From assembly GCF_026151205.1 (NCBI RefSeq), contig NC_087074.1, forward strand, positions 5,706,001-5,770,000: DNA of 64,000 nucleotides, written 5' to 3'. This DNA is from Bolinopsis microptera (Eukaryota; Ctenophora; Tentaculata; Lobata; Bolinopsidae). Position 1 is the stretch's first letter. Each line of letters opens with the position of its first letter. Below, one piece after another: positions 2,152-64,000 of the stretch. The position numbers and the translations under genes are program-made. The notes beneath the pieces are model-generated. The model searched no databases. It worked only from the letters and a program-made list of their open reading frames with translations, and was not told where the DNA came from.

Positions 2152-2510
2152 TTTTTTCTAGACACTTATTTTACTTCGGTGTATTCCAACAGCCACAATG
2201 TTACACAAGTGCAACCAGCCAATTACAGGAAGCCGAAGGATCTTTTTGGCCAGTGACGGTTAAGGTAGTGTGTACCATACTTTCTTCGTCCGAGACTTTG
2301 CTGCAATGTGCAGCTCCTCATTTAACCCTCACACCCGATTTCTCGAGTATTCGGCTGAGTAGACCGGGGGGCTGCATAGACCACTCATGATCCTTAGCTG
2401 AACGTCGACGACGCTCACCCCACGACCAGGCAGTCAGTGGGTTTCGAACTCGCAACCTAACGATTGTAAGACAGGCGTTCTAACCAACTGCGCTACCTGG
2501 CCGTTATAAT
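2152..2510 (-). mobile_element. tRNA-derived SINE
   Basis: On the minus strand, 2503 down to about 2430 reads as a tRNA-related head. It has an A-box-like segment (TAGCGCAGTTGG), a B-box-like segment (GAGTTCGAAACCC) and a pairing acceptor stem (GGCCAGG with CCTGGTC). A body of about 270 bp follows toward lower coordinates, ending in a T-run on the plus strand (2151-2157), that is, a short poly(A) tail. A direct repeat AGCAATGTTGGTT lies at 2139-2151 and 2511-2523 and fits a target-site duplication. The combination of tRNA head, A-tail and target duplication is the usual SINE structure. No family name is assigned. Confidence 0.8.
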
Positions 2511-3318
2511 AGCAATGTTGGTTATAATACTGCACTACTACTTTTTAACCCTCTCTCTCCTCTAAGAGCTATGACTGTTGTTCTCAAAAGGTCAAATCTT
2601 ACTCTCTTCCTAATAAATATCATGATTTATTCGTTTATCCAAACTTATAAATCAGGAGGACGGCTGATAATTAGTCACATTATTAGCTCTTTTAGATTTG
2701 ACAATAAAGTTTTGTTTGCAGCATTTCCATTGCTTACTCATTTTCTGCTTCTGGTCTGTATTATTTTAGTTTTATCAATATTATATTTAATTAGATCATT
2801 CAATGATTAGTTCATCTGATACCGTTTTATCTTACATTCTATACTTTAATACAATGTAATGTGCTACTTAAAGATAAGTACTTACATATTGTTGTTGACT
2901 CTAACATTTACCGATGTAAATTTAGTCCAAAGAATCCTTCTAAAAGTTTATATCATGACAAAAGTATAATTCGGGCGATTGATATGGTCATTCAAAGAGG
3001 AGTTTGAACTAAGTTGAGTTAAATGTGTGTTAAAGATAAAGTTGTTTTCTTATGAGAATGGTGTAATCAGGGCACGTGTTAATGAAAAATGTACGTGTCC
3101 TTCCACAATCCCTTCTGTTGGGTCACACGTTATTGGGAACTGAGATCGCTATCGTGTAACTAGAAGCAGTATATGCAAAGTAACTTTGGTGATAGGTGAT
3201 AGGCAATATGAAATTACACATCTTACTTTAACTTTATCCCGTCACCCATGGACTTATTAATTAACGGCTGGTGGTGGTGTCATCGTTTGTCGTACTCAAA
3301 ACGTTTCGCGGTTGCGAA

Positions 3319-3470
3319 TGCCGGCCCATCGAGGAAAATCTTTTTACTTTGTATTTTAACCATTATAAAGTATGATTAGTCGGATATAGTACTGAGTTCA
3401 AATAGTCTCTGAAACGAAAAAGCAAACATTTGATTTTTGTTTCGGCGACTGAATCGTTGATGGGCCGGCA
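3319..3470. mobile_element. possible small MITE with 12-bp terminal inverted repeats
   Basis: TGCCGGCCCATC at 3319-3330 is perfectly inverted at 3459-3470. The interior is AT-rich and non-coding. No target duplication was identified, so it could be a chance palindrome. Confidence 0.35.
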
Positions 3471-4118
3471 AATATTTGTTGTCGAGTAGTGTTGAATACT
3501 CATATTAACATGATTATTGATTTAATTTAGGAATTGTATATAACTATCTTTGACCAAGTTTAATTGTTAATGAGAATGCACCCCAGCACTGGGCGCGCGC
3601 TGCGGCTTTGATGTTAGCGGCTACAAGCTTGAAGCTAGGCAGCCGCAGAAAAAACGCTGTACGCGTTCACAGTTCAGCGTACGGCTTTTCGTTTTTAATT
3701 TTACAAATGACAAAGCAACTTTTAATGATTATTAATGGAATTATAGGATATTTATAATTCAATATGTATTGATTCTTCTGTGGAAAATAAAAATTGTATT
3801 TTACTTTTTCGTGGCACACCTGTGCATTTTAAGTTGTTGTGCCACTATATTCTTAAAGTTTAAATTATTATGATATATTTATTATTTATTTATAATTTAG
3901 ATTTATATAATTAATTATATAAATATAATCTTAATTATTGAATATTCATTCGAGTGAATCAATTGAATCTTTATGAATTATATATGAATTTATATAGGGT
4001 CATTGTAATATTATGTGTATATTTTTTGAATTTATCTTTATGAATTATGTCATCATTGATCAATTTAACAACTTTTCTTATTTGAAGGATATGGGACCAT
4101 AAATATGTCACTAGAGAA

Positions 4119-7100
4119 ATGTCCTACAGGAATAATGAGCCACAGGTAATTCAGAACGGTCTATATTACATTTTTATTGATTATTGGATTTCCTGCTTTT
4201 AAACAGTTTTGATGCAAAAGGTATTTTGTGCATATAAATTGGTCAGATAATTGATCAACATTGTCCTAGATTTCCAATAATGATGATACTTTTTCTCAGG
4301 ATAATCACATAGTTCAAACCAATAATGGCAGACCATCAAATCATTCAAGATCTGATAACAAAAATGTAAGTTTATTTGTACTACTTTAATGTAGCACAAA
4401 TTTATTGCTTCAGGCTCAAACCTGTTTTTATTCTTGGTTGAATATGGCGTTGAGTTTTTTAAACATTGATATGCATACATTTTCAGAGGCATCAGTCTCA
4501 TATAGGGAGACACAGGGAACAAAATGGAAGGCCTCATTATGACAGGGAACGATCTAGTGATGTCTATCGACCAAGATACCCAAGTAACTCATCTGACATG
4601 AGAGATGGCAGAGATAATCGATATAATCCTAGAGGAAATGGACAACACTATCCTGAACCAGTGAACAACAGACCCGACAATCAGCATCCTGTTCAAGAAA
4701 ACAAACACGATCAGAGCACCCTTAAAGTCGAGGTGGCAGAAATAAATCTGCAGAGCCTGAAGACTACACTAATACCCCTGAATATCAGCTATGGGAGAAG
4801 CTTAGTAAAAAGATTAAGGATTGGAACAGTGAGCGAAAGGAAATCTTTCATATGACTTTTCCTGACAAGGTATGCTTATCAAAAATCGTTGATATCGCTT
4901 TTTCAAAATTATAACAATCATTTTTATCAAGTAAGTAATTGGACATTAATTATGTTTAAATTGTACACTAAATTATCATATCATTAAAAAAAGTCTTATA
5001 ATTTCCATTTTCAGTATATGGAATATTTTGGGGTTATCCAAGTATTTCTTCAAGAACCAGACAACAAATATAGCAGTAAATGTGTGAGGATTTCCAGTCT
5101 AACTGATGTTTACGAACTAAAAAGTATCCTGAAGGAAAAGTTTTCGCTTCATCGTGATTTAAACCCACATCGATTGAATGTCTATGAAGTTCACTTGGGT
5201 TCACGTAAGTATAGGTTCTAAAATTATTTGACGAGGTGAGTTAGATTAAAGTGAGCTATTAAAATTTTTGTAACTACATTAAACATTAAGTTTTAACTCA
5301 GTTTTAAAATTTCAGCGGAACTAGAATTAGAACCAGATATGTTCCCCATACAAATTCAATTGGAGTGGGGTAGCAACAGGAGTGATGGTCGATTTGTTCT
5401 AAAACTTCACAGCGACGTTCCTATCTCACAAGACGTGTTTGGGGATGTGGCCACCTTTAAAAAGGCCAACAGTAATGGTAGGATATTTTATATAATGTGA
5501 TACTAGTCATCTTTTTGACGAAATAGAAATGGCCTGTCAAGAATGAAGCTAAAGATTATGTCCAGCTTTTCTCACAATAAAAACTCAATCTAGGGTACTC
5601 GCTTCTAATCCTATACATCGATTTTCAGTGCTACAGCTACAAAGGCACCGGAAAGCAATATTAGATCAGAAACTGAAGGTTTCTTCAAGGACTCGGCCGA
5701 GCCCACTGGAGGACCACTCCGTGTGCACGCAGACACCATCAACAGTAACCAACCCTACAAGACACTGCTGGTCTCCAACACGGATAATGCCTGGTTTGTG
5801 CTGAAGGAGATGTTGGAGAAGTATGATATCAGGGGTTGTGGTCCGGAGGAGTTTGCTCTCTTCCAGATCACTGTTAGAGGCGACACTGGCAAGGTACCTA
5901 GCTCGGGGGGGGGGGGGGGGGGGGGGCTAGCTTATATTTACTAGTTTCATATCTCTAACCTTTAACTTGTGATAAATTGTGCTGTGATTCAATCACAAAA
6001 TGTTTACGTTACCTTTATTGGCTTTCGCTTTTCGCGTTTCAGTCGCTATAAATAGCGATTATAAAATTATTATCAGTCATGATACGAGACAGACTTAATT
6101 GCAATGGAATTCAAAGTTATGTGCCAGCACAAAAGCTTTTCCATTGCAGCACTATCGTTAGATAAAAACTGATAATACTCCACTATAATAAATGAAAGTT
6201 TTAAGAAAGTTCAAACTAATTACTAAGCTACTTTACAACTAAATTTCTTTGTTTCAGGCTGACGAACATTTATTAAGCAACAATGACTGTCCTATGGCGA
6301 TCTTGAAGAAGAGAGACACCGACACAAGTATAACATTTGAAATGAGGAGAAGGCCGCTCAATGCATTCCCTGATATCCCTGATGAGTTTGATGAGGACCT
6401 CATGCAGTCTCGGAACGATGGCACGCTCTCAAGAAGGGTTAGTTATTAATTTACATATTAGTTATTAATTTACATATTAGTTATTAATTTACATATTATG
6501 TTTTATCTAATCTTATCTAGAGTAAAATTAAATTCTCACCACTTTTTTTTCTTAACATGCATCATTTTTGATCCCAGCTAGCTTCAGAATCTCTTATGTA
6601 TTTTATCTTGGGTGATTATAGTTCTTATAATATTATGTAATACTTGAACAACTTTACTAGTGTCCAAATCTAAATCTATCTGATCAAATCTAACATTTTG
6701 AGATACTTGACCACTGCAATGAATACGATTTATCTGCTGTTTGCAGTAATTGAGTGTTAAGGACTCTAATTTCAAACTCATTATCATCTAACAATTACCT
6801 TCAGAGACCCCCAAATTATGCAAAGAATGTGCCGTATCTGTTGGAGATAAACGCAAGACCGGGAGAGCCACCCATTATATTCTATCTTGACAACCACATC
6901 ACCGAGATTGGATCTCTGAGACAGAACAAGTTTAACTATTTGTTCCTTCCTGGCCCGGATGTTGATCAGGTAGGTTAAATGGGCGTTTCCGGATACGATT
7001 TATTTTCATCTTTAATCCTGTTATCTTGGAATGATAAGAATGAATAGATCACCAGATTGATTACAGAAATATTTATCAATATGTTTATAACAGGATTTTA

Positions 7101-16100: not shown

Positions 16101-19100
16101 AAGGAACAAGGGTCAAATTAGCCGTTCTCTTATTATGAAAAGCTAGGCACATAGAACTTGAACCAATAATTACATAAACATACAGTCTTGTTTTTCTACC
16201 TTGTTCCTGAAAGCTTAAGTGTTTATGTACTTGGTTTGAGTGTGTGCCTACAAACAATGATCTAACAACTGGTGGTATGTAACCCTGGTATGTAACCCTG
16301 GTATGTAACCCTGGTATGTAACCCTGGTATGTAACCCTGGTATGTAACCCTGGTATGTAACCCTGGTATGTTACCCTGGTATGTAACCCTGGTATGTAAC
16401 CCTGGTATGTAACCCTGGTATGTAACCCTGGTATGTAACCCTGGTATGTAACCCTGGTATGTAACCCTGGTATGTAACCCTGGTATGTAACCCTGGTATG
16501 TTACCCTGGTATGTAACCCTGGTATGTAACCCTGGTATGTAACCCTGGTATGTAACCCTGGTATGTTACCCTGGTATGTAACCCTGGTATGTAACCCTGG
16601 TATGTAACCCTGGTATGTAACCCTGGTATGTAACCCTGGTATGTAACCCTGGTATGTAACCCTGGTATGTAACCCTGGTATGTAACCCTGGTATGTAACC
16701 CTGGTATGTAACCCTGGTATGTAACCCTGGTATGTAACCCTGGTATGTAACCCTGGTATGTTACCCTGGTATGTAACCCTGGTATGTAACCCTGGTATGT
16801 AACCCTGGTATGTTACCCTGGTATGTAACCCTGGTATGTAACCCTGGTATGTAACCCTGGTATGTAACCCTGGTACATGTAACCCTGGTATGTAACCCTG
16901 GTATGTAACCCTGGTATGTAACCCTGGTATGTAACCCTGGTATGTAACCCTGGTATGTAACCCTGGTATGTAACCCTGGTATGTAGCCCTGGTATGTAAC
17001 CCTGGTATGTTACCCTGGTATGTAACCCTGGTATGTAACCCTGGTATGTAACCCTGGTATGTTACCCTGGTATGTAACCCTGGTATGTAACCCTGGTATG
17101 TTACCCTGGTATGTAACCCTGGTATGTAACCCTGGTATGTAACCCTGGTATGTTACCCTGGTATGTAACCCTGGTATGTTACCCTGGTATGTAACCCTGG
17201 TATGTTACCCTGGTATGTAACCCTGGTATGTAACCCTGGTATGTAACCCTGGTATGTAACCCTGGTATGTAACCCTGGTATGTAACCCTGGTATGTTACC
17301 CTGGTATGTAACCCTGGTATGTAACCCTGGTATGTAACCCTGGTATGTAACCCTGGTATGTTACCCTGGTATGTAACCCTGGTATGTAACCCTGGTATGT
17401 AACCTTGTGTCATGTGCCTTTACACACCCCAGGCTGGAGCTGGCCGTGTGACTACATCTCTCTCTGGGAGTGTGTGTAAACAGTATGTGAACTTTGTGTC
17501 TAAAGAAATAAACATTGTCTTTGTGAGAGATAATGAGCTGTTCAGTTGGCGTTCTCTTTTTCTGTTACTGTTAGGGAGGCACTGCACTGTAAGGGGGGTA
17601 GCGGCACATTTACATCAGTTATATATTATAGATATAATATTGGTAGTGAGCTTAGATTAAATGTGAAAGATATGGTTGAAATTTGAGCCCAGAGGTTCTG
17701 ATGTAGGATGACATATATGTCACTTTATGACACATAATTAATTCTATGTTGCCACCAACATCCTTCTGAAATGCACTTAGTGAAGTAATAACCCTTATAT
17801 ATCTGCTGAACTGACAAAAATACCCTCAAATATTTCTAATATTAGAGATCTTCTTACTATTTTTACCTTCAAAGTTTTAAAAGTATCTACAAGTATGCAG
17901 TTACAAGAAGAAAGTACTAATGATTATTTAATAACCAAAGTAACTTGATGACTAAAGTTACTAACCAAAATAACTTGATGACTAAAGTTACACACTCACC
18001 CCCAGGTGTATCACGTGATATCAGTACTCTCCATCATGTCAACTCTGCTGTACAGAATGTTGGTTCCTGAGGAGGCTCGTCGTGTTATCATACAATATCT
18101 ACTCTCCTTTATCAACACTTGGATATCAAACGCGGTATGTACTATTATCTAGAGAATATTCATGTTCTACTACCGCTACCAGTATCCATATTGGTACAAA
18201 TTGCATTTTCGAAAATCAATTATTTGATCTCATGAATTCTGAACGTGGTCGGTGGTATGTACCATTATTTAAAGTATCTTCATAGTCTACTACTATATAG
18301 TATATACCCATATTGGTACAAATTGAATTTTCTTTGATTTTACTACCGTCTCCTAATTCCTATGCCCATATTGGTACAAATTGAATTTTCGAAAAGACAA
18401 TTATTTGATCTCATAAATTCTGCTGTCAGACTTTCCCCTTTTTTCTAAATTGCTTTATTATATCATAACTCGAAAATAGACCGGTTATAATCTCCCAAAT
18501 TTCGACTTTCTAGATAATGAAATTTGATGTTTTGCAACGATCATTAGTGTTTGATATGTAAGTCGTAAGATGATTTCATTTGTATGACATACCGCAAATA
18601 CTCCTGACAATATGACCCGTGATCAGTCCCTCTCTGCGCACATTACATCATATTCCTGCAGCACCTTTATCATTAGTTACATCATCAAGTTGCACTTAAA
18701 AATATTTCTCTACACCAATAATGACGTTATCGTCTCTAGCTGCATGGTATGACGTCTCGGCCCTAACTTTATGACGTCACAGCCTAACTTAATGACGTCA
18801 TACTGTTTAACAGGTGTTGAAAGAGGAGAAGTTGTGTAGAAGTTTGTGGGGACTGAGGTTACAGAGACGTCTGGACAAGCTGGATCAGTGGTGTAAACGT
18901 AATGGGATCGGCAAACCCATCTCCCACTTCATGACCGAACTAATTCAGGTAATTTAATAATTTATAATTATAGCCCAGGAATTTACAGCTCAGGTATTTG
19001 CAATTTGTTCGAGAATCGGATTTGATCCGTCCCGCTATAAAATTAAATAGTGAATTAGTCGCAAGCACTTATAATTGAGACTATGAAAATGTCTCAGCAT

Positions 19101-22100
19101 AAACGCGCATGTACTGTGAAAGAATAAAAGACGTTAAGTCCAGTCTCCCACCACTTCTTCATACATAAAACACTCAGTCACGAGACTTATTATTCTCCAA
19201 TTTGTGAACAGTTCCCAGTTTTAGGACTACTCTTGAATGACCAAGATTTAATTTTGAACATGACGTGTTCCTTATTATTTACCTGCTGGGCGCTGGCCCC
19301 TTCAAAGCGTTACAGACACTCCACACTTCACTTCACTTCACTTTACTGATAACATTGTAAGTCCTGGTATACTGACAATCGCATTAAGTCTCATTGTATT
19401 AGAGTTCTGAGAGGAATGTGTTTTAACTTTCACCAGCCAGATGTTTTAAATCCAGGTTTCAGAGCCAGGTTTCAGTAGCCAGGTTTCAGTAACCAGGTTT
19501 CAGTAACCAGGTGTTGGAATGGTTGGTAGTTTAGAGTTTCAACACAGTGAAGCTTTTATTTAATAGGTGGTGCCTTGTAAAACACACAGAACAATGACCT
19601 ATTGTGCGTGTGTGGAGTGTACAACTTACAATTACATGGGTATCACATAACTATATCACATAACTTGTCTCACAAATAAATTCCATAAAACTATAAAATG
19701 CCCTATTTCTATCAGCATTGTTCTCAATACCAGTTCACTAATTCCAGTTATCTAATAACTCCACAACATGTTGAAATTGGTAAAACTTAATTCCCGGCAC
19801 AATTTAAAGTTAGCTAGTGATCTACGCAACCATGTAATTACACATAAAATAGAAGGCACGTTGTAATTAAAGTGTAACCCTATCAAGTTTTAGCTGGTTT
19901 GTAGTTTACCCACCCACTCACCTGTAACTGTTTAATAAATATACTTGTTCTGGAAACTACTGTATTGGTTACTGAGTGTTAATACGATGTGTCTGTGTAG
20001 CATAAACTAATAGTAGAGTGTTCTTTCACCTTTAATTAACATTAACCTTTAATTAATATTATGATATCCAGTCCTGTCAGTAGTTTAAATATCATAGAAT
20101 CAAAGAAATGTTAATGTTAACTGTTGTTTATCCAACAAATCAGACTGTTTGTGGTCGGTTAAACACGATTTGGAAAGCACCGATTTGGATTCTTTAATAA
20201 TAGTAACACACACACACACACAGATGTAAAAATATACCATTTGTTTACTTACTGTGCACACAGTTAAAGTTTAAACGTGACCTCATTCAGCTAATTGTTT
20301 TCTACTTTAATAGTACATGTTAGGAAATGGTCGGGCATTCCATGATACACTACCAGACAGCGACTGTTTTGAATATAATATGTATAATATGCCCTTTATA
20401 ATATGTTATATCCGTCTTGTGGTATTTATTGGCAGGAGTATAGTTAGAAGTGTGCAGTGAATTAGTGAATTCCAAAGATGACGTTCTCTAGTGTCCCGGA
20501 AAAACAGTTTTAAAGCCGAAAAAAGAGCGATTATTGCCCAAAAATCCCAAAAATGTGATAAAATAGCACACCTTCATAATATTAGCGATAAATAAAGTTC
20601 AGACAATTTGAAACATAATACTTATCTGACTTATAGACAGTGAAATTTGTACACTGTATGTTCTCTTTTACTGTGTTTCCGTTTTTCAAACTCAATCTCT
20701 TTTTATCAGTTATTTAGAATATATATTCGCATTTATCCACACTCTATTTACATTACACGTACAACGTGATATCGTTATCAGTGCAGTGTGTACAACACCA
20801 ACTACACCGATCAATTGCCAATCTGCGAAACATTTTTAATTATTATTATCACTTCGAGATGGCCAGGCCTACTCTCATGCTGTCTATATGTGATGATTAA
20901 CTCTGAAAAACTAGGGACAACTGGGGAATGATCCCAGAACCTCGAGATTTCGCGTCTCTTGCTCTACCAATTGAGCTACTGACCCTGATTCTCAGAGCGA
21001 AATCACCACTCATATACAGCACAATTTCATGCTTTGTGTGGAATATCATTTATCAGTTATTTAGAATATATATTCGCATTTATCCACACTCTATTTACAT
21101 TACACGTACAACGTGATATCGTTATCAGTGCAGTGTGTACAACACCGCACTGGTAGAGCAAGAGACGCGAAATCTCGAGGTTCTGGGATCATTCCCCAGT
21201 TGTCCCTAGTTTTTCAGAGTGAATCATCACATATAGACAGCATGAGAGTAGGCCTGGCCATCTCGAAGTGATAATAATAATTAAAAATGTTTCGCAGATT
21301 GGCAATTGATCGGTGTAGTTGGTGTTGTACACACTGCACTGATAACGATATCACGTTGTACGTGTAATGTAAATAGAGTGTGGATAAATGCGAATATATA
21401 TTCTAAATAACTGATAAATGATATTCCACACAAAGCATGAAATTGTGCTGTATATGAGTGGTGATTTCGCTCTGAGAATCAGGGTCAGTAGCTCAATTGG
21501 TAGAGCAAGAGACGCGAAATCTCGAGGTTCTGGGATCATTCCCCAGTTGTCCCTAGTTTTTCAGAGTTAATCATCACATATAGACAGCATGAGAGTAGGC
21601 CTGGCCATCTCGAAGTGATAATAATAATTAAAAATGTTTCGCAGATTGGCAATTGATCGGTGTAGTTGGTGTTGTACACACTGCACTGATAACGATATCA
21701 CGTTGTACGTGTAATGTAAATAGAGTGTGGATAAATGCGAATATATATTCTAAATAACTGATAAATGATATTCCACACAAAGCATGAAATTGTGCTGTAT
21801 ATGAGTGGTGATTTCGCTCTGAGAATCAGGGTCAGTAGCTCAATTGGTAGAGCAAGAGACGCGAAATCTCGAGGTTCTGGGATCATTCCCCAGTTGTCCC
21901 TAGTTTTTCAGAGTTAATCATCACATATTAGACAGCATGAGAGTAGGCCTGGCCATCTCGAAGTGATAATAATAATTAAAAATGTTTCGCAGATTGGCAA
22001 TTGATCGGTGTAGTTGGTGTTGTACACACTGCACTGATAACGATATCACGTTGTACGTGTAATGTAAATAGAGTGTGGATAAATGCGAATATATATTCTA

Positions 22101-25100
22101 AATAACTGATAAATGATATTCCACACAAAGCATGAAATTGTGCTGTATATGAGTGGTGATTTCGCTCTGAGAATCAGGGTCAGTAGCTCAATTGGTAGAG
22201 CAAGAGACGCGAAATCTCGAGGTTCTGGGATCATTCCCCAGTTGTCCCTAGTTTTTCAGAGTTAATCATCACATATAGACAGCATGAGAGTAGGCCTGGC
22301 CATCTCGAAGTGATAATAATAATTAAAAATGTTTCGCAGATTGGCAATTGATCGGTGTAGTTGGTGTTGTACACACTGCACTGATAACGATATCACGTTG
22401 TACGTGTAATGTAAATAGAGTGTGGATAAATGCGAATATATATTCTAAATAACTGATAAATGATATTCCACACAAAGCATGAAATTGTGCTGTATATGAG
22501 TGGTGATTTCGCTCTGAGAATCAGGGTCAGTAGCTCAATTGGTAGAGCAAGAGACGCGAAATCTCGAGGTTCTGGGATCATTCCCCAGTTGTCCCTAGTT
22601 TTTCAGAGTGAATCATCACATATAGACAGCATGAGAGTAGGCCTGGCCATCTCGAAGTGATAATAATAATTAAAAATGTTTCGCAGATTGGCAATTGATC
22701 GGTGTAGTTGGTGTTGTACACACTGCACTGATAACGATATCACGTTGTACGTGTAATGTAAATAGAGTGTGGATAAATGCGAATATATATTCTAAATAAC
22801 TGATAAATGATATTCCACACAAAGCATGAAATTGTGCTGTATATGAGTGGTGATTTCGCTCTGAGAATCAGGGTCAGTAGCTCAATTGGTAGAGCAAGAG
22901 ACGCGAAATCTCGAGGTTCTGGGATCATTCCCCAGTTGTCCCTAGTTTTTCAGAGTTAATCATCACATATAGACAGCATGAGAGTAGGCCTGGCCATCTC
23001 GAAGTGATAATAATAATTAAAAATGTTTCGCAGATTGGCAATTGATCGGTGTAGTTGGTGTTGTACACACTGCACTGATAACGATATCACGTTGTACGTG
23101 TAATGTAAATAGAGTGTGGATAAATGCGAATATATATTCTAAATAACTGATAAATGATATTCCACACAAAGCATGAAATTGTGCTGTATATGAGTGGTGA
23201 TTTCGCTCTGAGAATCAGGGTCAGTAGCTCAATTGGTAGAGCAAGAGACGCGAAATCTCGAGGTTCTGGGATCATTCCCCAGTTGTCCCTAGTTTTTCAG
23301 AGTTAATCATCACATATTATAGACAGCATGAGAGTAGGCCTGGCCATCTCGAAGTGATAATAATAATTAAAAATGTTTCGCAGATTGGCAATTGATCGGT
23401 GTAGTTGGTGTTGTACACACTGCACTGATAACGATATCACGTTGTACGTGTAATGTAAATAGAGTGTGGATAAATGCGAATATATATTCTAAATAACTGA
23501 TAAATGATATTCCACACAAAGCATGAAATTGTGCTGTATATGAGTGGTGATTTCGCTCTGAGAATCAGGGTCAGTAGCTCAATTGGTAGAGCAAGAGACG
23601 CGAAATCTCGAGGTTCTGGGATCATTCCCCAGTTGTCCCTAGTTTTTCAGAGTTAATCATCACATATAGACAGCATGAGAGTAGGCCTGGCCATCTCGAA
23701 GTGATAATAATAATTAAAAATGTTTCGCAGATTGGCAATTGATCGGTGTAGTTGGTGTTGTACACACTGCACTGATAACGATATCACGTTGTACGTGTAA
23801 TGTAAATAGAGTGTGGATAAATGCGAATATATATTCTAAATAACTGATAAATGATATTCCACACAAAGCATGAAATTGTGCTGTATATGAGTGGTGATTT
23901 CGCTCTGAGAATCAGGGTCAGTAGCTCAATTGGTAGAGCAAGAGACGCGAAATCTCGAGGTTCTGGGATCATTCCCCAGTTGTCCCTAGTTTTTCAGAGT
24001 TAATCATCACATATAGACAGCATGAGAGTAGGCCTGGCCATCTCGAAGTGATAATAATAATTAAAAATGTTTCGCAGATTGGCAATTGATCGGTGTAGTT
24101 GGTGTTGTACACACTGCACTGATAACGATATCACGTTGTACGTGTAATGTAAATAGAGTGTGGATAAATGCGAATATATATTCTAAATAACTGATAAATG
24201 ATATTCCACACAAAGCATGAAATTGTGCTGTATATGAGTGGTGATTTCGCTCTGAGAATCAGGGTCAGTAGCTCAATTGGTAGAGCAAGAGACGCGAAAT
24301 CTCGAGGTTCTGGGATCATTCCCCAGTTGTCCCTAGTTTTTCAGAGTTAATCATCACATATAGACAGCATGAGAGTAGGCCTGGCCATCTCGAAGTGATA
24401 ATAATAATTAAAAATGTTTCGCAGATTGGCAATTGATCGGTGTAGTTGGTGTTGTACACACTGCACTGATAACGATATCACGTTGTACGTGTAATGTAAA
24501 TAGAGTGTGGATAAATGCGAATATATATTCTAAATAACTGATAAATGATATTCCACACAAAGCATGAAATTGTGCTGTATATGAGTGGTGATTTCGCTCT
24601 GAGAATCAGGGTCAGTAGCTCAATTGGTAGAGCAAGAGACGCGAAATCTCGAGGTTCTGGGATCATTCCCCAGTTGTCCCTAGTTTTTCAGAGTTAATCA
24701 TCACATATAGACAGCATGAGAGTAGGCCTGGCCATCTCGAAGTGATAATAATAATTAAAAATGTTTCGCAGATTGGCAATTGATCGGTGTAGTTGGTGTT
24801 GTACACACTGCACTGATAACGATATCACGTTGTACGTGTAATGTAAATAGAGTGTGGATAAATGCGAATATATATTCTAAATAACTGATAAATGATATTC
24901 CACACAAAGCATGAAATTGTGCTGTATATGAGTGGTGATTTCGCTCTGAGAATCAGGGTCAGTAGCTCAATTGGTAGAGCAAGAGACGCGAAATCTCGAG
25001 GTTCTGGAGTTCTGGGATCATTCCCCAGTTGTCCCTAGTTTTTCAGAGTTAATCATCACATATAGACAGCATGAGAGTAGGCCTGGCCATCTCGAAGTGA

Positions 25101-28058
25101 TAATAATAATTAAAAATGTTTCGCAGATTGGCAATTGATCGGTGTAGTTGGTGTTGTACACACTGCACTGATAACGATATCACGTTGTACGTGTAATGTA
25201 AATAGAGTGTGGATAAATGCGAATATATATTCTAAATAACTGATAAATGATATTCCACACAAAGCATGAAATTGTGCTGTATATGAGTGGTGATTTCGCT
25301 CTGAGAATCAGGGTCAGTAGCTCAATTGGTAGAGCAAGAGACGCGAAATCTCGAGGTTCTGGGATCATTCCCCAGTTGTCCCTAGTTTTTCAGAGTTAAT
25401 CATCACATATAGACAGCATGAGAGTAGGCCTGGCCATCTCGAAGTGATCAATCTCTTTTTGAATCAATATTTAATTCATTATGAACATCTGAAATACTAA
25501 TTAATTTCAGATAACTGACCTACTGAGAGCACCAAAACATGATCTGGACCAACTAGCAGATCTGTTACAAGGATGTAACGAGCTGAACTCTCTGCAAGTT
25601 GGTACAATTCTCAGGAAATACAAACCTGGCCCAGACGAGGAACCCGTTTCAAGAGGTAAGTAAATAGTTTAAAGTCTTCCGAAGAATTCAGGTAATATTC
25701 CGAAGAATTCCTAATATCGACATTTTCTGTGGAGCATTGCCATTTTGTAATGGAAGTGACAGCGAGTCTGAGCTTTACATCGTTTAGCAATTAGCATTTG
25801 TTGGGATTGCAGCATGTTATTTAACATTATCCGACTTCCGAGGCCCAAAACATCCACGATTTAAACCATGTTTTAATTTCAGAGTTTATAGAGGCCGCAG
25901 TGTCGATCACAGACTCAATAGTAGATGTAAGGCTGCGAGGCGAGGGGGAGCCAATAGATATGAAAGTACAAGAACCCCTCCTCAGATATCCGCTTCACAA
26001 GCTCACGGCTTGTAACCACGAGCCAGGCTTGACTACTTATACCCAGACTTTCTTCGAGAGAGTATGCGAGGGTTGCGGTTAGTTGCTCTTTTATTATGAA
26101 ATCAGTTGAATTTTACTGTTTGTTGTTATCCGATACTATCAACGGGTACAGTTTTTTATATTTAAAAAAAATTATTGATAAATTTAACACGGAGTTGACA
26201 AAAATAAGCCAATTTTAGGACTACATTAGCTTAAGCTAATGATAATTTCCTCAGACGAAGAGTTGGAACTAAGAGAAAACGTTGGAGGTGACCGTTGGTG
26301 TTTCCGGAAGCCAACAGATGATCACCCTAAAACTGGTAATGAACCATGATAAGCATGCAAGACTGAGGCCTCCCCAGATACCACAGTTCAAACGTTCTAT
26401 TTGTAGTCTGGAACAGCTGTTATTTTGATCCAGGCGCGGGAGACCAAATGGAAAACGCGAAATTATATTTTGTCTACTACTAGCACTAGCTTCATTGCGA
26501 GCACGTGAATATACAAAGCCGCGCGGTATGGATTTGATGTGATCGACGTAATTCAAACATACTGACGAATTCTTGGCTTTTGGCATTTTGTCAGTCTGGA
26601 ATGCACATAGCACTCTCCTGTGAAATACATCCCACAATCTGCACGCGAATAGTTTCTCAAACTGCTAAATATTTTCAGATGACAAGCCCAAATCAGAGAG
26701 TCAGAACATACTGGATCAGTGCGAGATAGCTTCTTACACCATCGCAAGAAATGATCTTAGTCTCGGAGTCAGCATCGTTGGAGGGAAAGATTCAAATAAT
26801 TCTCATTCCGGAATCTTTGTTAAGAATGTGTTTAAAGATGGAGCAGCTTATGAGGTATTTTTATCTGTTTATGTTGATCACCACAGTAAAAAATGATTCC
26901 ATTCTTCATTCGAACGGGACTTTAAACGCATAATGATAATTATAATGAAAGAGCTGAATTCATAATTACATATTACAATTTTAGGACGGACGACTGAAGC
27001 CAGGGGATCAGATACTAGAGGTGAACGGAGTGCCAACAAATGAAATCACCCAAGAAATGGCGGCTGCCCTTCTTGACAGAGAAAGTGAAGCTGTTAGCAT
27101 TACCGTCGCCAAGATGGCTGCTGCTTATTATGGCATCCTCAGTGAAGAAGGTACGTGAATATTTCTACCGCCAACGCTCTTTTTAAAAAAGGAATAATTA
27201 TCTCTCAACAAACTTGCCGTCGACGAATTTTGACATTTTATGAAAAGTTATTGTGACAAACTGACTGTATTGATACACTTACAGATCTGACAGAATCATC
27301 TAGCTACTCTGACATACCTGTATAAATACTGACATATCTAAAACTACCGGTGAGAAGAAGCACTTAGCTTACTGCCAGGCAATTGCTAGAACGGGGACTC
27401 TATTATCAATTATACTAGACAGTTGGCTATTTAGACTAAACTGTAGGATATCAACCCAGAAAATCCTGCTCTGAATTTGTAAAGCTTGCCAAATAACTGC
27501 TACAAGAAGCACATTTTACAAAGATATCGACTGTATACGTTTACAAAATGACAATGGCAATAGCTTACTTTTGCTACATATCATGAATATACCACACCTT
27601 CCAGTTTCTCGCTAAAACCTTTTCTTTCTCCAGGAGCCTCGAGGACCTCCTCCCAGCAGTCCAGCCCCAACACTCCCTCCCCTGCCACCCACAACCACGA
27701 CTCAGACTTCCAGTTCCAAGACCCAGCTGATCCTGATGACATGTTGCTCAGAATGTTGGAGAAAGATACCGGCAGTTTAATAATCCACGATTCTGACGAA
27801 GACCTGGCAACAATTGACTCGCTTAGGAAAGACACAACTTTAACCTCCAACATAAGCGTCAACGAGGTGGTTGTGTTTGGGGTTGAGTCCGCGGAAGTGA
27901 GCTTTGAAGAGGACGAAGTGTTGGAAGATGAGGACAGCTACAGGGTTGGTTACGGAGAGGATGGTTCGGACTGTGAGGATAGTTACAGGGTATCAGCAGA
28001 CCCTCATATCGTAGACACACACGTCCCGCTCAACTTTAGGATTTCAGATGAGGTGTAG
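4119..28058 (+). CDS. AFDN: afadin/canoe-like junctional scaffold (whole gene, about 23 exons)
   Basis: Domain order RA-RA-FHA-DIL-PDZ is diagnostic of afadin/canoe, which in animals binds Ras/Rap GTPases and nectins and links adherens junctions to actin. Exons: 4119-4145, 4487-4869, 5015-5204, 5316-5477, 5637-5893, 6258-6437, 6805-6969, 7136-7319, 7380-7492, 7621-8868, 9020-9160, 11952-12083 (or from 11919), 12259-12363, 12787-12924, 13235-13357, 18006-18134, 18814-18948, 25511-25655, 25883-26077, 26255-26335, 26679-26854, 26985-27150, 27634-28058. Splice phases agree at every junction. The exceptions are inside exon 2, where the frame breaks, and after the FHA domain, where a 60-nt intron is assumed. 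The start at 4119 is chosen because its exon ends in the phase needed by exon 2. The product would be about 1,660 residues. It stops about 140 residues after the PDZ domain, so the long actin-binding C-terminus of vertebrate l-afadin is absent. Confidence 0.9.
4487..4869 (+). CDS. AFDN: afadin exon 2: low-complexity N-terminus with frame break
   Basis: The 5' part reads in the frame set by exon 1 and gives an Arg/Asn/Pro/Asp-rich segment. The 3' part must be read in another frame to give WNSERKEIFHMTFPDK, which leads into RA1 as in other afadins. The second frame is closed upstream by a TAA at 4723-4725; the first is closed at 4853-4855. The exon is 383 nt, one base short of the length that would join the two phases. 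A one-base assembly deletion is the simplest explanation; a real mutation or unrecognised splicing is possible. Confidence 0.65.
5015..5477 (+). CDS. AFDN: afadin RA1 domain exons (5015-5204, 5316-5477)
   Basis: These two exons encode the first Ras-association domain, roughly residues 137-250. It opens with YFGVIQVFLQ, continues through KCVRISSLTDVYELKSIL and the LNVYEVHLGS strand, and ends near GRFVLKLHSD. The ubiquitin-like RA fold binds GTP-loaded Rap/Ras in the family. Donor GTAAGT at 5205 and acceptor TTTCAG at 5315 split the domain in phase 1. Confidence 0.88.
5637..6437 (+). CDS. AFDN: afadin RA2 domain exons (5637-5893, 6258-6437)
   Basis: This is the second Ras-association domain, roughly residues 254-399. 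It includes LRVHADTINSNQPYKTLLVS, LEKYDIRGCGPEEFALFQI and, after the intron, NDCPMAILKKRDTDTSITFE followed by MRRRP. Two acceptors are present 8 nt apart, ending at 5628 and 5636. Only the second keeps the phase of the preceding exon, so 5637 is used. Confidence 0.88.
5905..5926 (+). repeat. poly(G) tract, 22 G in a row
   Basis: An uninterrupted run of 22 G begins 11 nt inside the intron after the donor at 5894. It could form a G-quadruplex in DNA or pre-mRNA close to the splice donor. Its exact length is likely to be unreliable in any assembly. Confidence 0.9.
6805..7492 (+). CDS. AFDN: afadin FHA region exons (6805-6969, 7136-7319, 7380-7492)
   Basis: The first exon gives NVPYLLEINARPGEPPIIFY and leads into the FHA domain. 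The second has the FHA core FVNGTRIPDSVPLHPDDVIT followed by IGRSYKFQFV, as in the afadin FHA. FHA domains usually bind phosphothreonine. The same frame then reaches TAG at 7373-7375 and reopens beyond it. Removing 7320-7379 as a 60-nt GT-AG intron joins the exons in phase. That segment lacks a polypyrimidine tract, so the model here is less certain than elsewhere. Confidence 0.7.
7621..8868 (+). CDS. AFDN: afadin linker exon rich in Arg-Asp-Pro repeats
   Basis: One 1,248-nt exon encodes about 416 residues between FHA and DIL. Its central half (roughly residues 160-350 of the exon) is a dense mixed-charge tract of DPRDR, RDRRD and PRDPR type repeats. Such tracts are expected to be disordered. 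The flanks are Pro/Ser/Thr/Asp/Glu-rich. Acceptor TTTTCCACAG ends at 7620 and the donor GTACCA starts at 8869; both phases are 0. The opposite-strand open frames of this stretch are shadows of the codon bias. Confidence 0.85.
9020..9160 (+). CDS. AFDN: afadin exon leading into the DIL domain
   Basis: A 47-codon phase-0 exon reading LELILPVFFVFDPANIETIL, corresponding to the conserved segment just before and at the start of the DIL domain in afadins. Acceptor TTGGCAG and donor GTGGGTG. Confidence 0.85.
9421..9538 (+). repeat. AT-rich repeat of GAAATATTTGTTA
   Basis: Several near-identical copies of TTATTAGAAATATTTG, alternating with ACAGAAATATTTG, lie in the 9161-11918 intron. Confidence 0.8.
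10140..10672. repeat. cluster of TGTCGAACT/AGTTCGACA motifs
   Basis: Within the afadin intron 9161-11918, two groups (about 10140-10226 and 10540-10672) hold many degenerate copies of TGTCGAACTAGAGT in both orientations, often with ACGTG beside them. This is either a decayed repeat or a cluster of binding sites. No protein-coding signal is present. Confidence 0.65.
11892..11957 (+). repeat. AFDN: tandem duplication of a 33-bp splice-acceptor segment
   Basis: Two adjacent near-identical 33-bp copies of the TTTAACAC.CGATATTG/TGTTTCAGGAGTGC segment each contain a full acceptor, giving AG ends at 11918 and 11951. The copies differ at few bases. Because the unit is 33 bp, either acceptor keeps the reading frame. 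Confidence 0.9.
11919..12083 (+). CDS. AFDN: afadin DIL exon with alternative acceptors (11919 or 11952)
   Basis: The core exon (11952-12083) encodes MFSPTYAMYAILHGAAQDES and the following helix, matching the first DIL helices. Using the upstream acceptor adds 11 residues (ECSLTLDIVFQ). Both choices are in frame and free of stops. Confidence 0.82.
12259..18948 (+). CDS. AFDN: afadin DIL domain core exons
   Basis: Exons 12259-12363, 12787-12924, 13235-13357, 18006-18134 and 18814-18948, all phase 0, continue the DIL (dilute) domain. Landmarks are GGSLFWLTNTLELYHLL, VAIKSSIDSCTEQLIPYLN, VLSIMSTLLYRMLVPEEARR, LLSFINTWISN and LWGLRLQRRLDKLDQWCKRN. The fold is all-helical and shared with class V myosin tails. 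The large gap between 13357 and 18006 is one intron of about 4.6 kb filled by repeats. Confidence 0.88.
12940..13021 (+). repeat. five 18-bp repeats containing CACGTG
   Basis: Starting about 15 nt after a splice donor, AATCACGTGATC plus a TGAGG-type spacer is repeated five times. Four copies keep the CACGTG palindrome; the last has CATGTG. Confidence 0.85.
14626..15432. mobile_element. 807-bp MITE-like element, copy 1
   Basis: The element lies in an afadin intron and has terminal inverted repeats CTACCTTACTCGGGATT, inverted at 15416-15432. Subterminal inverted segments around TTCCCGAACCA and CCGGTCGTTAATAAACCC are also present. It has no transposase; the one open frame inside (14680-14967) has no recognisable domain. 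A nearly identical copy of equal length is at 51658-52464. A TA duplication is possible but is not distinguishable from the repeat ends. Confidence 0.85.
16274..17405 (+). repeat. 13-bp minisatellite, about 87 copies
   Basis: The unit is TATGTAACCCTGG. A recurring variant has TATGTTACCCTGG, scattered roughly every 3-8 units. Single units carry TACATG and GTAGCC changes. The array lies in the 4.6-kb afadin intron. Open frames on the minus strand arise because 13 bp read three times gives a stop-free 13-residue peptide repeat; they are not genes. Confidence 0.97.
18130..18420 (+). repeat. degenerate tandem repeats after an afadin exon
   Basis: The motif CCATATTGGTACAAATTG, with flanking TTTTCGAAAA and TTATTTGATCTCAT, appears three times. 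GTATGTAC.ATTATxTA is duplicated too. Units are roughly 80-110 bp and divergent. The first copy starts at the splice donor itself. Confidence 0.7.
19450..19512 (+). repeat. short tandem repeat CCAGGTTTCAGTAA
   Basis: About five copies of a 14-bp unit, CCAGGTTTCAGTAA/CCAGGTTTCAGTAG, within the 18949-25510 intron. Confidence 0.85.
20913..20985 (-). ncRNA. tRNA-like sequence, inverted copy
   Basis: Minus-strand 73-nt cloverleaf like the copies at 21482 onward, in the inverted left end of the array. It is intact. Confidence 0.55.
21482..21554 (+). ncRNA. tRNA-like sequence (reference copy of the array)
   Basis: The 73 nt fold as a cloverleaf. The acceptor GGGTCAG pairs with TTGTCCC with one T:T mismatch. 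The D stem is GCTC/GAGC, the anticodon stem AGAGA/TCTCG has four pairs, and the T stem CTGGG/CCCAG is perfect. The A-box (TAGCTCAATTGG) fits the Pol III consensus; the B-box (GATCATTCC) is close. The anticodon loop CGCGAAA has G where tRNAs have U33. The nominal anticodon CGA would imply serine, but there is no long variable arm, so a functional serine tRNA is unlikely. It is probably a tRNA-derived Pol III promoter or SINE head. Confidence 0.6.
21829..24681 (+). ncRNA. nine further tRNA-like copies
   Basis: Copies start at 21829, 22177, 22524, 22871, 23218, 23568, 23915, 24262 and 24609. Each is 73 nt and identical to the reference copy as far as could be read. Confidence 0.55.
24956..25036 (+). 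ncRNA. tRNA-like copy with 8-nt duplication
   Basis: An 8-nt duplication (GGAGTTCT type, near 25007-25015) splits the T arm of this copy. That also explains the 355-bp spacing to the next unit. The last copy of the array, at 25311-25383, is intact. Confidence 0.6.
25311..25383 (+). ncRNA. tRNA-like sequence, last copy of the array
   Basis: Intact 73-nt copy followed by the truncated unit end ATCTCGAAGTGA at 25447. Confidence 0.55.
25511..26335 (+). CDS. AFDN: afadin exons between DIL and PDZ (25511-25655, 25883-26077, 26255-26335)
   Basis: The first exon closes the DIL domain (ITDLLRAPKHDLDQLADLLQ and the LNSLQVGTILRKYKP segment). The next two encode about 92 residues without a recognised domain, matching the variable DIL-PDZ linker of afadins. 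All three junctions are phase 1, and all acceptors have T-rich tracts. Confidence 0.82.
26679..27150 (+). CDS. AFDN: afadin PDZ domain exons (26679-26854, 26985-27150)
   Basis: The PDZ domain spans roughly residues 1425-1515. The carboxylate-binding loop is DLSLGVSIVGG (the family has GLSIV). Then follow GIFVKNVFKDGAAYEDGRL, the PGDQILEVNG turn and a final VSITVAKMAA strand. In afadin this domain binds the nectin C-terminus. Confidence 0.92.
27634..28058 (+). CDS. AFDN: afadin last exon: short acidic C-terminal tail
   Basis: About 141 residues follow the PDZ domain and end at TAG 28056-28058. The tail is Ser/Thr/Pro-rich, then strongly acidic, with two SYRV-containing near-repeats (EDEDSYRVGYGEDG and DCEDSYRVS). 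Coiled-coil, proline-rich and actin-binding segments seen in vertebrate l-afadin are missing. Confidence 0.85.
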
Positions 28059-30216: not shown

Positions 30217-30776
30217 ATAATAGTAAAATTTGGTTATTTAGAATATATATTCGCATTTATCCACACTATATTTACATTACACGTACAACGTGATATCGTT
30301 ATCAGTGCAGTGTGTACAACACCAACTACACCGATCAATTGCCAATCTGCGAAACATTTAATTATTATTATCACTTCGAGATGGCCAGGCCTACTCTCAT
30401 GCTGTCTATATGTGATGATTAATTCTGAAAAACTAGGGACAACTGGGGAATGATCCCAGAACCTCGAGATTTCGCGTCTCTTGCTCTACCAATTGAGCTA
30501 CTGACCCTGATTCTCAGAGCGAAATCACCACTCATATACTAACTGATAAATGATAACTGATAAATGATATTCCACACAAAGCTTGAAATTGTGCTGTATA
30601 TGAGTGGTGATTTCGCTCTGAGAATCAGGGTCAGTAGCTCAATTGGTAGAGCAAGAGACGCGAAATCTCGAGGTTCTGGGATCATTCCCCAGTTGTCCCT
30701 AGTTTTTCAGAATTAATCATCACATATAGACAGCATGAGAGTAGGCCTGGCCATCTCGAAGTGATAATAGTAAAAT
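30217..30776. mobile_element. second tRNA-like element: inverted pair with flanking direct repeats
   Basis: About 30230-30540 is a minus-strand permuted unit and about 30541-30763 is a plus-strand unit. The outer ends match those of the large array (TTATTTAGAATATAT on the left, ATCTCGAAGTGA on the right). The direct repeat ATAATAGTAAAAT lies at 30217-30229 and 30764-30776. tRNA-like copies are at 30435-30507 (-) and 30628-30700 (+). Confidence 0.85.
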
Positions 30777-56199: not shown

Positions 56200-56645
56200 A
56201 GCGCGATGCACTACTGGGCCGGCCAGGCCGCGCATTTTTTTCGTATGCAGATCGGCTCTTACTAATTCGCACGCCCAAAAATTTCACGTGACTTTGGTTT
56301 TTATGGTTTTGCAGCCGTACAAAACGGTTTTACATAAACCCTAATCCCAACCCTAACCCTAACCATAACCCCGAAGCTAACCATAACCCTTACCATAAAG
56401 TAAAGTAAAGTACTACCTAGCCTGTCACGTGATCAAAACGGTTTTTTTGCCCATAACTCTCCAGGGAAGCATTTTAACCCTACGTCATGGGGGGTGATTC
56501 GGAATCAGCGTCCAAAAATACACCGATCTAGATTACCTTCATGCCCAAAGGGCCTTTTCAATTTCACAAGAATTTTCTTAAAATTTGGGCGAGCGATTTA
56601 GTAGGAGCGATGCAGATCGGCGAAATGCGAAGGATTGACATTTTG
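56200..56645 (+). repeat. dispersed repeat interrupted by an element
   Basis: The outer parts (56200-56255 and 56610-56645) match the uninterrupted copy at 32366-32455. Confidence 0.7.
56256..56609. mobile_element. TIR element with telomere-like interior, copy 1
   Basis: 354 bp. Ends CTCTTACTAATTCGCACGCC and GGGCGAGCGATTTAGTAGGAG are imperfect inverted repeats. The 11-bp direct repeat ATGCAGATCGG lies at 56245-56255 and 56610-56620. The interior contains CCCTAACCCTAACC-type repeats and a GTCACGTGA motif. No coding capacity. Confidence 0.87.
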
Positions 56646-57040: not shown

Positions 57041-57435
57041 CTCTTACTAAATCGCTCGCCCAAAAATTTCACGTGACTTTGGTTTTTTTGGTTTTGCAGC
57101 CGTACAAAACGGTTTTACATAAACCCTAATCCCAACCCTAACCCTAACCATAACCCCGAATTTGCGCGAAACTATCCATAATCTTAACCACAACCCTAAC
57201 CCTAACCCGAGCCCTAAATAATCGAATTCACGTTTTAGTTTTACTAGCCTGTCACGTGACAAAAACGGTTTTTTGCTCATAACTCTCCAGGGAAGCATTT
57301 TAACCCTACGTCATGGGGGGTGATTCGGAATCAGCGTCCAAAAATACACCGATCTAGATCACTTTCAGTGTCATGCCTAAAGGGCCTTTTCACAAGAATT
57401 TTCTTAAAATTTGGGCGAGCGATTTAGTAGGAGCG
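57041..57435. mobile_element. TIR element with telomere-like interior, copy 2
   Basis: 395 bp in the same orientation as copy 1. The ends CTCTTACTAAATCGCTCGCC and GGGCGAGCGATTTAGTAGGAG pair better than in copy 1. The 11-bp direct repeat ACAATTAGGGG lies at 57030-57040 and 57436-57446. It carries two CCCTAACCC-type patches. Confidence 0.88.
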
Positions 57436-62947: not shown

Positions 62948-62951
62948 CTGA

Positions 62952-63490
62952 AAAACACACCGTCAAAACACTAGAAACACTAGAAAAACACACCGTCAAA
63001 GCACTAGAAACACTAGAAAAACACACCGTCAAAACACTAGAAACACTAGAAAAACACACCGTCAAAACACTAGAAACACTAGAAAAACACACCGTCAAAA
63101 CACTAGAAACACTAGAAACACTAGAAACACTAGAAACACTAGAAACACACCGTCAAAACACTAGAAACACTAGAAACACTAGAAACACTAGAAACACTAG
63201 AAACACTAGAAACACTAGAAACACACCGTCAAAACACTAGAAACACAAGAAAAACACACCGTCAAAACACTAGAAACACTAGAAAAACTAGAAACACTAG
63301 AAACACTAGAAATACACACCGTCAAAACACTAGAAACACTAGAAATACACACCGTCAAAACACTAGAAACACTAGAAACACTAGAAACACTAGAAACACT
63401 AGAAATACACACCGTCAAAACACTAGAAACACTAGAAACACTAGAAACACTAGAAACACTAGAAATACACACCGTCAAAACACTAGAAAC
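62952..63490. repeat. compound minisatellite next to a T-box splice acceptor
   Basis: A 9-bp unit ACACTAGAA is nested in a longer unit bounded by ACACACCGTCAAAAC, with a variable number of 9-mers per long unit. It starts within about 5 bp of the acceptor for the T-box exon 62947-62801. Minus-strand open frames here translate the repeat ([11 protein letters not shown] type) and are not genes. Confidence 0.93.
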
Positions 63491-64000
63491 AAACTCACAA
63501 AACAACGATAAATTATCACGCTTGCTTCCGGACTATAGGTCTGTTAAAACTAAATCCTAAGACGTTCCTAACAGAACTGAACGAACCACCACTCAAGTCA
63601 CGACAAAAATCAAGATACTTAAGACGTTGGTAGCAGCAAAAAGAACTAAGAAGCAGAGCGTTATGTGGCATTGTAAGGCACTGAATACTCAGGCTGCTGG
63701 TCGAACATTAGCATGCTACCCAAAGCTTTGCTTGTTAAACACGCTTCATATTCACATGTACCGAGATGTGGAGAGGACCATACAGTCAGGCTGCTTTATT
63801 GCATGCTTGTTTATTATCTGTTGTCTATCTTGTTATGAGAGTTTTCATATCCCTGATATTGTGGATAATCTGCATGTGCCGTTGCCCGTTACCAGGGGAT
63901 TTCTATTCCCTGAATTCGTGTTCAGGCCATATTCTACCGACAAATTTGACCGTTCAATTTTGTCGATGGATCGCTAAGTCTCATGTACAGGGATAATATC
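63491..64000. other. T-box intron, no exon recognised
   Basis: No T-box coding segment upstream of ILNSMH was found on the minus strand to the window end. The plus-strand open frame 63627-63977 has no recognisable domain. Confidence 0.5.

Follow-up and report, generated by a model that had tools for sequence, protein, structure and literature searches.

The window, that is, the whole 64,000-nt stretch of DNA analysed here (C3:5706001-5770000 in the searched genome), contains a block at 20692-25460 in which two unequal arms of one repeated unit lie in opposite orientation. A second, shorter copy of the same family, with its own 13-bp duplication, was found at 30217-30776. The features of both copies are as follows (tRNA-like domains of the plus arm as matched with Rfam).

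20692-20704, no strand: left 13-bp target duplication, TCAATCTCTTTTT, at the block edge
20705-21146, minus strand: minus arm of 1.28 units that ends outward at site B (~268 of the unit)
20913-20985, minus strand: tRNA-like domain of the minus arm (Rfam RF00005, 43.3 bits)
21147-21150, no strand: GCAC, four extra bases between the minus and plus arms, at the centre
21151-25447, plus strand: plus arm, a 347-bp unit repeated 12.4 times and ending outward at site A (~121 of the unit)
21482-21554, plus strand: first complete tRNA-like domain of the plus arm
starting at 21829, 22177, 22524, 22871, 23218 and 23568, plus strand: further tRNA-like domains
starting at 23915, 24262, 24609, 24956 (with an 8-bp insertion) and 25311, plus strand: last tRNA-like domains
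25448-25460, no strand: right 13-bp target duplication, TCAATCTCTTTTT, at the block edge
30217-30229, no strand: left target duplication of the second copy, ATAATAGTAAAAT
30230-30763: body of the second copy, minus arm of 0.89 unit (B end) and plus arm of 0.64 unit (A end)
30764-30776, no strand: right target duplication of the second copy

The plus array was delimited by TRF at 21151-25448, with 12.4 copies of a 347-bp unit and 99% matches. Thirteen tRNA matches were obtained in the block with Rfam; against a gathering score of 29, twelve reach 43.3 bits and the thirteenth, which carries the 8-bp insertion, 35.7 bits; ARAGORN likewise called 13 tRNAs within the block. The initial annotation had described about 12.5 near-identical 347-bp direct units with an inverted left end, a perfect flanking 13-bp direct repeat and no coding sequence, and all of these features were recovered (the longest ORF touching the block has 66 aa). 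The TAATAATAATT tract to which it had also pointed does occur in the units. This tract is frequent across the genome (1777 + 1768 matches; 2321 + 2278 for the reversed control) and therefore means nothing by itself. A and B boxes of the unit were judged by eye against the consensus, the B box being imperfect. The block is confirmed and is one member of a family dispersed in the genome. The second copy, in which 13 extra bases lie where the arms meet, was absent from the initial annotation. Elsewhere in the window, TRF identified a 13-bp tandem repeat, TGGTATGTAACCC, at 16273-17404 (87 copies, 97% matches), 9-bp units of the AAACACTAG type arranged in a complex array with several longer periods at 62950-63491, and short degenerate AACCCT-type arrays at 56337-56398 and 57122-57157, which resemble internal telomere-type repeats.

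The genome searched comprises 264.65 Mb in 232 contigs, with thirteen large contigs accounting for 97.5%. A search with the unit gave at least 188 matches (best 40 of 240 candidates scored), while a 54-base pattern of the tRNA-like domain, allowing up to three mismatches, was found at 186 places genome-wide and nowhere with the reversed control; the 100 listed of these 186 places, all exact, occupy 53 loci. In total, 59 copies were examined. The first set consists of 41 copies (39 fetched loci and the two in the window) which are the best-scoring ones and therefore biased to long copies. The remaining 18 were held out, being taken from 27 unfetched loci among the listed tRNA-like-domain places, and all of them were chosen with an exact tRNA-like domain. 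Unit positions (q) are counted from q1 at window position 21498, and the unit counts of arrays come from one assembly. No description of a two-armed, tRNA-bearing family was present among the matches listed in the open-licence literature.

A typical copy consists of two head-to-head arms of a ~345-bp unit bearing the tRNA-like domain. In 32/41 copies of the first set, an outward-reading minus arm is followed on the right by an outward-reading plus arm; two-armed copies amount to 44/59 overall, and one-armed ones to 9/41 in the first set, 6/18 in the held-out set and 15/59 in total. The outer ends fall at two places of the unit. Site A ends lie at q110-150 (..CGAAGTGA/TAATAATAATT, the slash marking the end; the highest values extend into the flank) and site B ends at q261-276 (..AATAACTGAT/AAATGAT). 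In the first set, 28 copies were typed as A/B, one as B/B and none as A/A, the other 12 lacking an arm or a typed end; the sole B/B copy is L041, the second end of which is at q247. The same end windows applied to the held-out set gave 12 A/B and six single-arm copies, with neither A/A nor B/B. Thus, where both ends could be typed, 40 of 41 copies carry one A and one B end, one is B/B and none is A/A (P = 2e-11 for at least 40/41 mixed, assuming independent ends at one half). The central feature is a pair of outward arms whose ends are fixed at two different sites, each used once per copy. The position of the arm junction is variable, with overlaps and gaps of up to 13 bases, and even copies with a total length below one unit can be two-armed (held-out L073, L076 and L086). 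In five copies (L037, L039, L046, L077 and L086) the arms stop no more than one unit position apart, resulting in near-palindromic centres. A nested inverted duplication was observed in the family copy at L035 (964-2428), where a 13-bp duplication flanks the whole.

Of the 59 copies, 45 are flanked by target duplications of 10 bp or more, usually 12-14 bp (4/487 in swapped-flank controls). They were found in 31/41 copies of the first set (3/319 with swapped right ends) and in 14/18 held-out copies (1/168 in the swapped control). The lengths in the first set were 12 bp (n = 12), 13 bp (n = 8), 14 bp (n = 7), 10 bp (n = 2), 15 bp (n = 1) and 23 bp (n = 1). The check proposed with the initial annotation, namely whether other copies show common ends and duplications of 12-13 bp, thus gave a positive result that extends to the held-out copies, and the retroelement-like insertion of the block is supported by ends and duplications shared across copies. 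That part of the earlier interpretation stands, whereas the outward two-arm, two-fixed-end architecture had been left out of it. A motif W/GT (the slash marking the nick) is common to both nicks. Read 5' to 3' on its own strand, the first base 3' of the nick is G in 29/60 cases of the first set (p = 4e-7) and the next one T in 39/60 (p = 6e-8). The nick priming A has G in 18/30 and T in 19/30, and that priming B has G in 11/30 (weak) and T in 20/30. With T in 16/28 but G in only 10/28 of the held-out nicks, G is the weaker letter of the motif. The similarity of the motifs suggests that two like endonuclease subunits may act at the two nicks.

Subfamily markers (69, 196, 209, 237 and others) vary between loci. 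The arms of one locus are concordant at these markers, with 0 discordant cells compared to 42 expected with random pairing and two mixed cells (L021 and L035); this sum leaves out two homopolymer sites at site A, at which L030 and L038 are discordant, with mixed cells in L013 and L019. At private sites outside the subfamily markers, changes in one arm only were seen in many loci. They would fit mutation after insertion, errors of copying or alignments that run into the flank, the last of which accounts for some of these arm differences. An arm longer than one unit is present in 24/32 two-armed copies of the first set (maximum 12.5 units) and in 1/18 held-out copies, the arms of which are mostly shorter than one unit; multimers are common in the best-scoring set only. 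Long arms, of 12.5, 9.5, 9.0 + 7.7 and 7.3 + 3.5 units, are found on three marker haplotypes. In arms with at least four unit segments, nine unit-private changes were found, eight in a single unit and one in two non-neighbouring units.

The tRNA-like domain, presumably closest to tRNA-Lys, is directly followed by a run of five T in 132/134 occurrences, so that Pol III transcription of the whole unit from the tRNA-like head looks unlikely. Seven tRNA-Lys-like places were found in the genome. Folded as a circle, the plus strand of the unit reaches -100.5 kcal/mol (-77.4 +/- 5.3 for 60 shuffles) and the minus strand -74.3 kcal/mol (shuffles -60.1 +/- 4.4). The predicted plus-strand fold is a long stem capped by the tRNA-like domain, and forcing the cloverleaf (less two non-standard pairs) is predicted to cost 0.9 kcal/mol. 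Sites A and B are 142 nt apart, both in predicted loops. Site B would be in one of the most accessible regions (2.3% of windows as open), and site A would lie in a less exceptional open loop (15% of windows as open). A hammerhead core (CUGANGA) was found on neither strand of the reference unit, the CUGANGA..GAAA pattern in 0/41 first-set copies, and no Rfam ribozyme family was matched in 5.2 kb (E cut-off 1) or in 1.3 kb (E cut-off 10); neither a known self-cleaving ribozyme nor a promoter was found for the unit. Matches to MIR7533 and MIR8007 were rejected as being far below the gathering scores and lying across the palindromic centre. A stronger conservation of the tRNA-like domain was rejected as well: changes were counted in 11/2967 cells inside and 124/11077 outside, but only in 38/10872 outside without five subfamily sites, and with the gap reduced in this way there is no clear difference in conservation. 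A cluster of breakpoints in the D arm (unit positions 341-10) comprised 16/64 inner ends of the first set within 17 nt, a value reached in 0/400 simulations. It was dropped after not being repeated in the held-out copies (0/24 inner ends; 1.2 expected if uniform). Both samples may be biased there because the query was cut at this place and the held-out copies were picked by an intact domain, and the cluster may reflect sampling bias or real stops.

The two arms, the two fixed ends with their one-A-one-B rule, the duplications and the common arm haplotype, all observed in the DNA as is the nick motif, would be explained together by two 3' ends priming the same RNA, each at its own site. We infer an RNA template, its circular form, a dimeric enzyme and a Penelope-type partner: the family is probably a non-autonomous retroelement whose ~345-nt unit RNA, most simply a circle, is copied by a PLE-like enzyme at both cut strands. 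The template would be the ~345-nt unit, most simply as a covalent circle, on which an endonuclease/reverse transcriptase with a Penelope-like mode would act. Both target strands would be cut at about W/GT with a stagger of 12-14 nt, and the two target 3' ends would serve as primers for reverse transcription of a single RNA, one starting at A, the second at B. Both cDNAs would extend the same way along this RNA, giving two outward arms of variable length, which would then be joined in the middle. A multimeric or circular RNA template had already been suggested in the initial annotation; it is the simplest reading of the copies.

The same two-site, two-strand target-primed copying could instead have used a linear multi-unit transcript of an older array. 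PLEs are tandem and thought to be transcribed as multi-copy RNA (passages of PMC11167929), the held-out copies require a template of only one to two units, and the circle is itself conjectural. A linear template would, however, cap each arm at the length of the parent's, yet arms of 12.5, 9.5, 9.0 + 7.7 and 7.3 + 3.5 units occur on three haplotypes, and the unit-private changes show no block pattern; this source of the template is considered unlikely. Growth in place, by which a single-unit insertion would have been followed by unequal crossing-over, inverted duplication or assembly expansion, is hardly credible. It can draw on the nested inverted duplication in L035 and on the fact that unit counts in assemblies can err. 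Against it, identical two ends and duplications are found at tens of loci, the two-armed form appears even in L073, L076 and L086 with less than one unit in total, and neighbouring units share none of the nine private changes, which argues against growth by unequal crossing-over. The other possibility raised in the initial annotation, expansion after a single insertion, is thereby disfavoured.

Twin priming likewise yields outward arms with duplications, and an ordinary tRNA SINE mobilised by a LINE with L1-like twin priming would account for the tRNA-like head. Such an origin is very unlikely considering that no poly(A) is present at the listed ends, the two priming sites are fixed, most copies have two arms (44/59), the nick motif is similar on both strands and five T directly follow the tRNA-like domain. 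Moreover, the inner arm ends show no clustering at the tRNA 5' end (q332, within 5 nt: 0/64 in the first set, 1/24 held out). Like tRNA-derived SINEs, the family has a tRNA-like head (RF00005, 43.3 bits) and is non-coding and dispersed; unlike them, it is two-armed and often multimeric, with two fixed ends and a T run directly after the head. With the Helenus TRIM, as presented in passages of PMC10886601, it shares the non-autonomous retroelement character and a tRNA-like sequence in the repeats, whereas Helenus is of the LTR type with a primer-binding site and duplications of 4-5 bp (mostly 12-14 bp here).

Copying of a unit RNA at both cut strands by a PLE-like enzyme, the preferred reading, has its closest parallels among PLEs. 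According to passages of PMC11167929, a purified PLE protein from Anolis both cleaves and extends the two target strands, with initiation at two positions inside the RNA that delimit an optional tail, and a dimer is predicted; in these passages the start site was not seen to differ between strands, in contrast to the one-A-one-B rule described here. Passages of PMC3846280 report that inverted PLE arms are mostly head to head, with a 31-bp tail optional at one, and that PLEs move other DNA in trans. Self-priming on an antisense template is discussed there as a cause of the inverted PLE form; it is possible in the present family too, where it would not alone give two fixed ends. The inverted arms and short target duplications resemble those of PLEs (Anolis Poseidon and Adineta vaga Pen families; passages of PMC11167929 and PMC3846280), as would two internal RNA start sites and the cutting and extension of both target strands (same passages). 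Head-to-head terminal arms and one-sided extension are also shared, with one A and one B end in 40/41 copies here. Unlike PLEs, the unit of only ~345 bp encodes no protein (RT, usual GIY-YIG; longest ORF 66 aa), contains a tRNA-like domain and has no hammerhead that could be found. The distance between A and B is 142 nt compared to 30-40 for the PLE tail in the passages describing it, and the duplications are mostly 12-14 bp compared to 8-10 bp in those of PMC11167929 and PMC3846280.

For retrozymes, RNA circles are proposed as templates and PLEs as strong mover candidates in passages of PMC7229834, and retrozyme repeats show no mover-revealing motif according to passages of PMC7761336; in the passages of both, the moving enzyme and circles as insertion templates are open questions. 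The present family resembles metazoan non-LTR retrozymes (coral, mussel, axolotl) in its non-coding tandem units, ~150-450 bp in passages of PMC7229834, and in duplications of more than 4 bp where present (same passages), with the held-out arms here being mostly shorter than one unit. Retrozymes are defined in these passages by a type I hammerhead, unlike the present family, in the unit and copies of which none was found. As to the inverted arrangement, the word "inverted" is absent from the main text of PMC7229834. The family fits the union of the PLE and retrozyme ideas but fails both definitions, since it encodes no protein and a hammerhead was looked for and not found. Speculatively, the tRNA-like domain might recruit host tRNA-processing or ligating enzymes instead of a ribozyme. 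It is possible, although we lean against it, that the family represents a ribozyme-free retrozyme, in which host tRNA-processing and ligation enzymes would cut and close the circle and two RT subunits would copy it at once, one per strand. The family preserves a DNA record of two fixed start sites, one per broken strand, with single-haplotype arms that can exceed the unit, and through it the circle-template and two-subunit models become directly testable. It also suggests that retrozyme-type insertion may not need a hammerhead.

GIY-YIG reading frames, as possible partners, are abundant in the genome (at least 147 matches; 150 of 527 candidates scored). Three families were compared with the unit, one with a C-terminal GIY-YIG (L049-L057 and L062) and two with an N-terminal one (L058 and L069-L071; L059-L061 and L065-L068). 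Their similarity to the unit does not exceed chance (best E 0.31 and 0.79), no ends in common with it were found, and their flanks are AT-repeat or unclear, with duplication matches that are mostly AT-repeat and none interpretable. Beside the GIY-YIG element of L058 lies a 366-bp satellite array (2481-6001), which was set aside as a dispersed satellite (275 matches, many genomic places). Pfam identified GIY-YIG in three of the ORFs, one below the curated cut-off, and no reverse transcriptase domain in these three; RYxDD motifs are present in two of them. The single GIY-YIG ORF tried against PDB gave no match, and a structure prediction of L065 without alignment was uninformative (mean pLDDT 32.9). 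According to blastp, GIY-YIG is located near the N terminus in L065 and L069, followed by an RT-like region, and the order is reversed in L055. As judged from these matches, the order in L065 and L069 appears to be a permuted PLE layout, found in two families with many long open frames.
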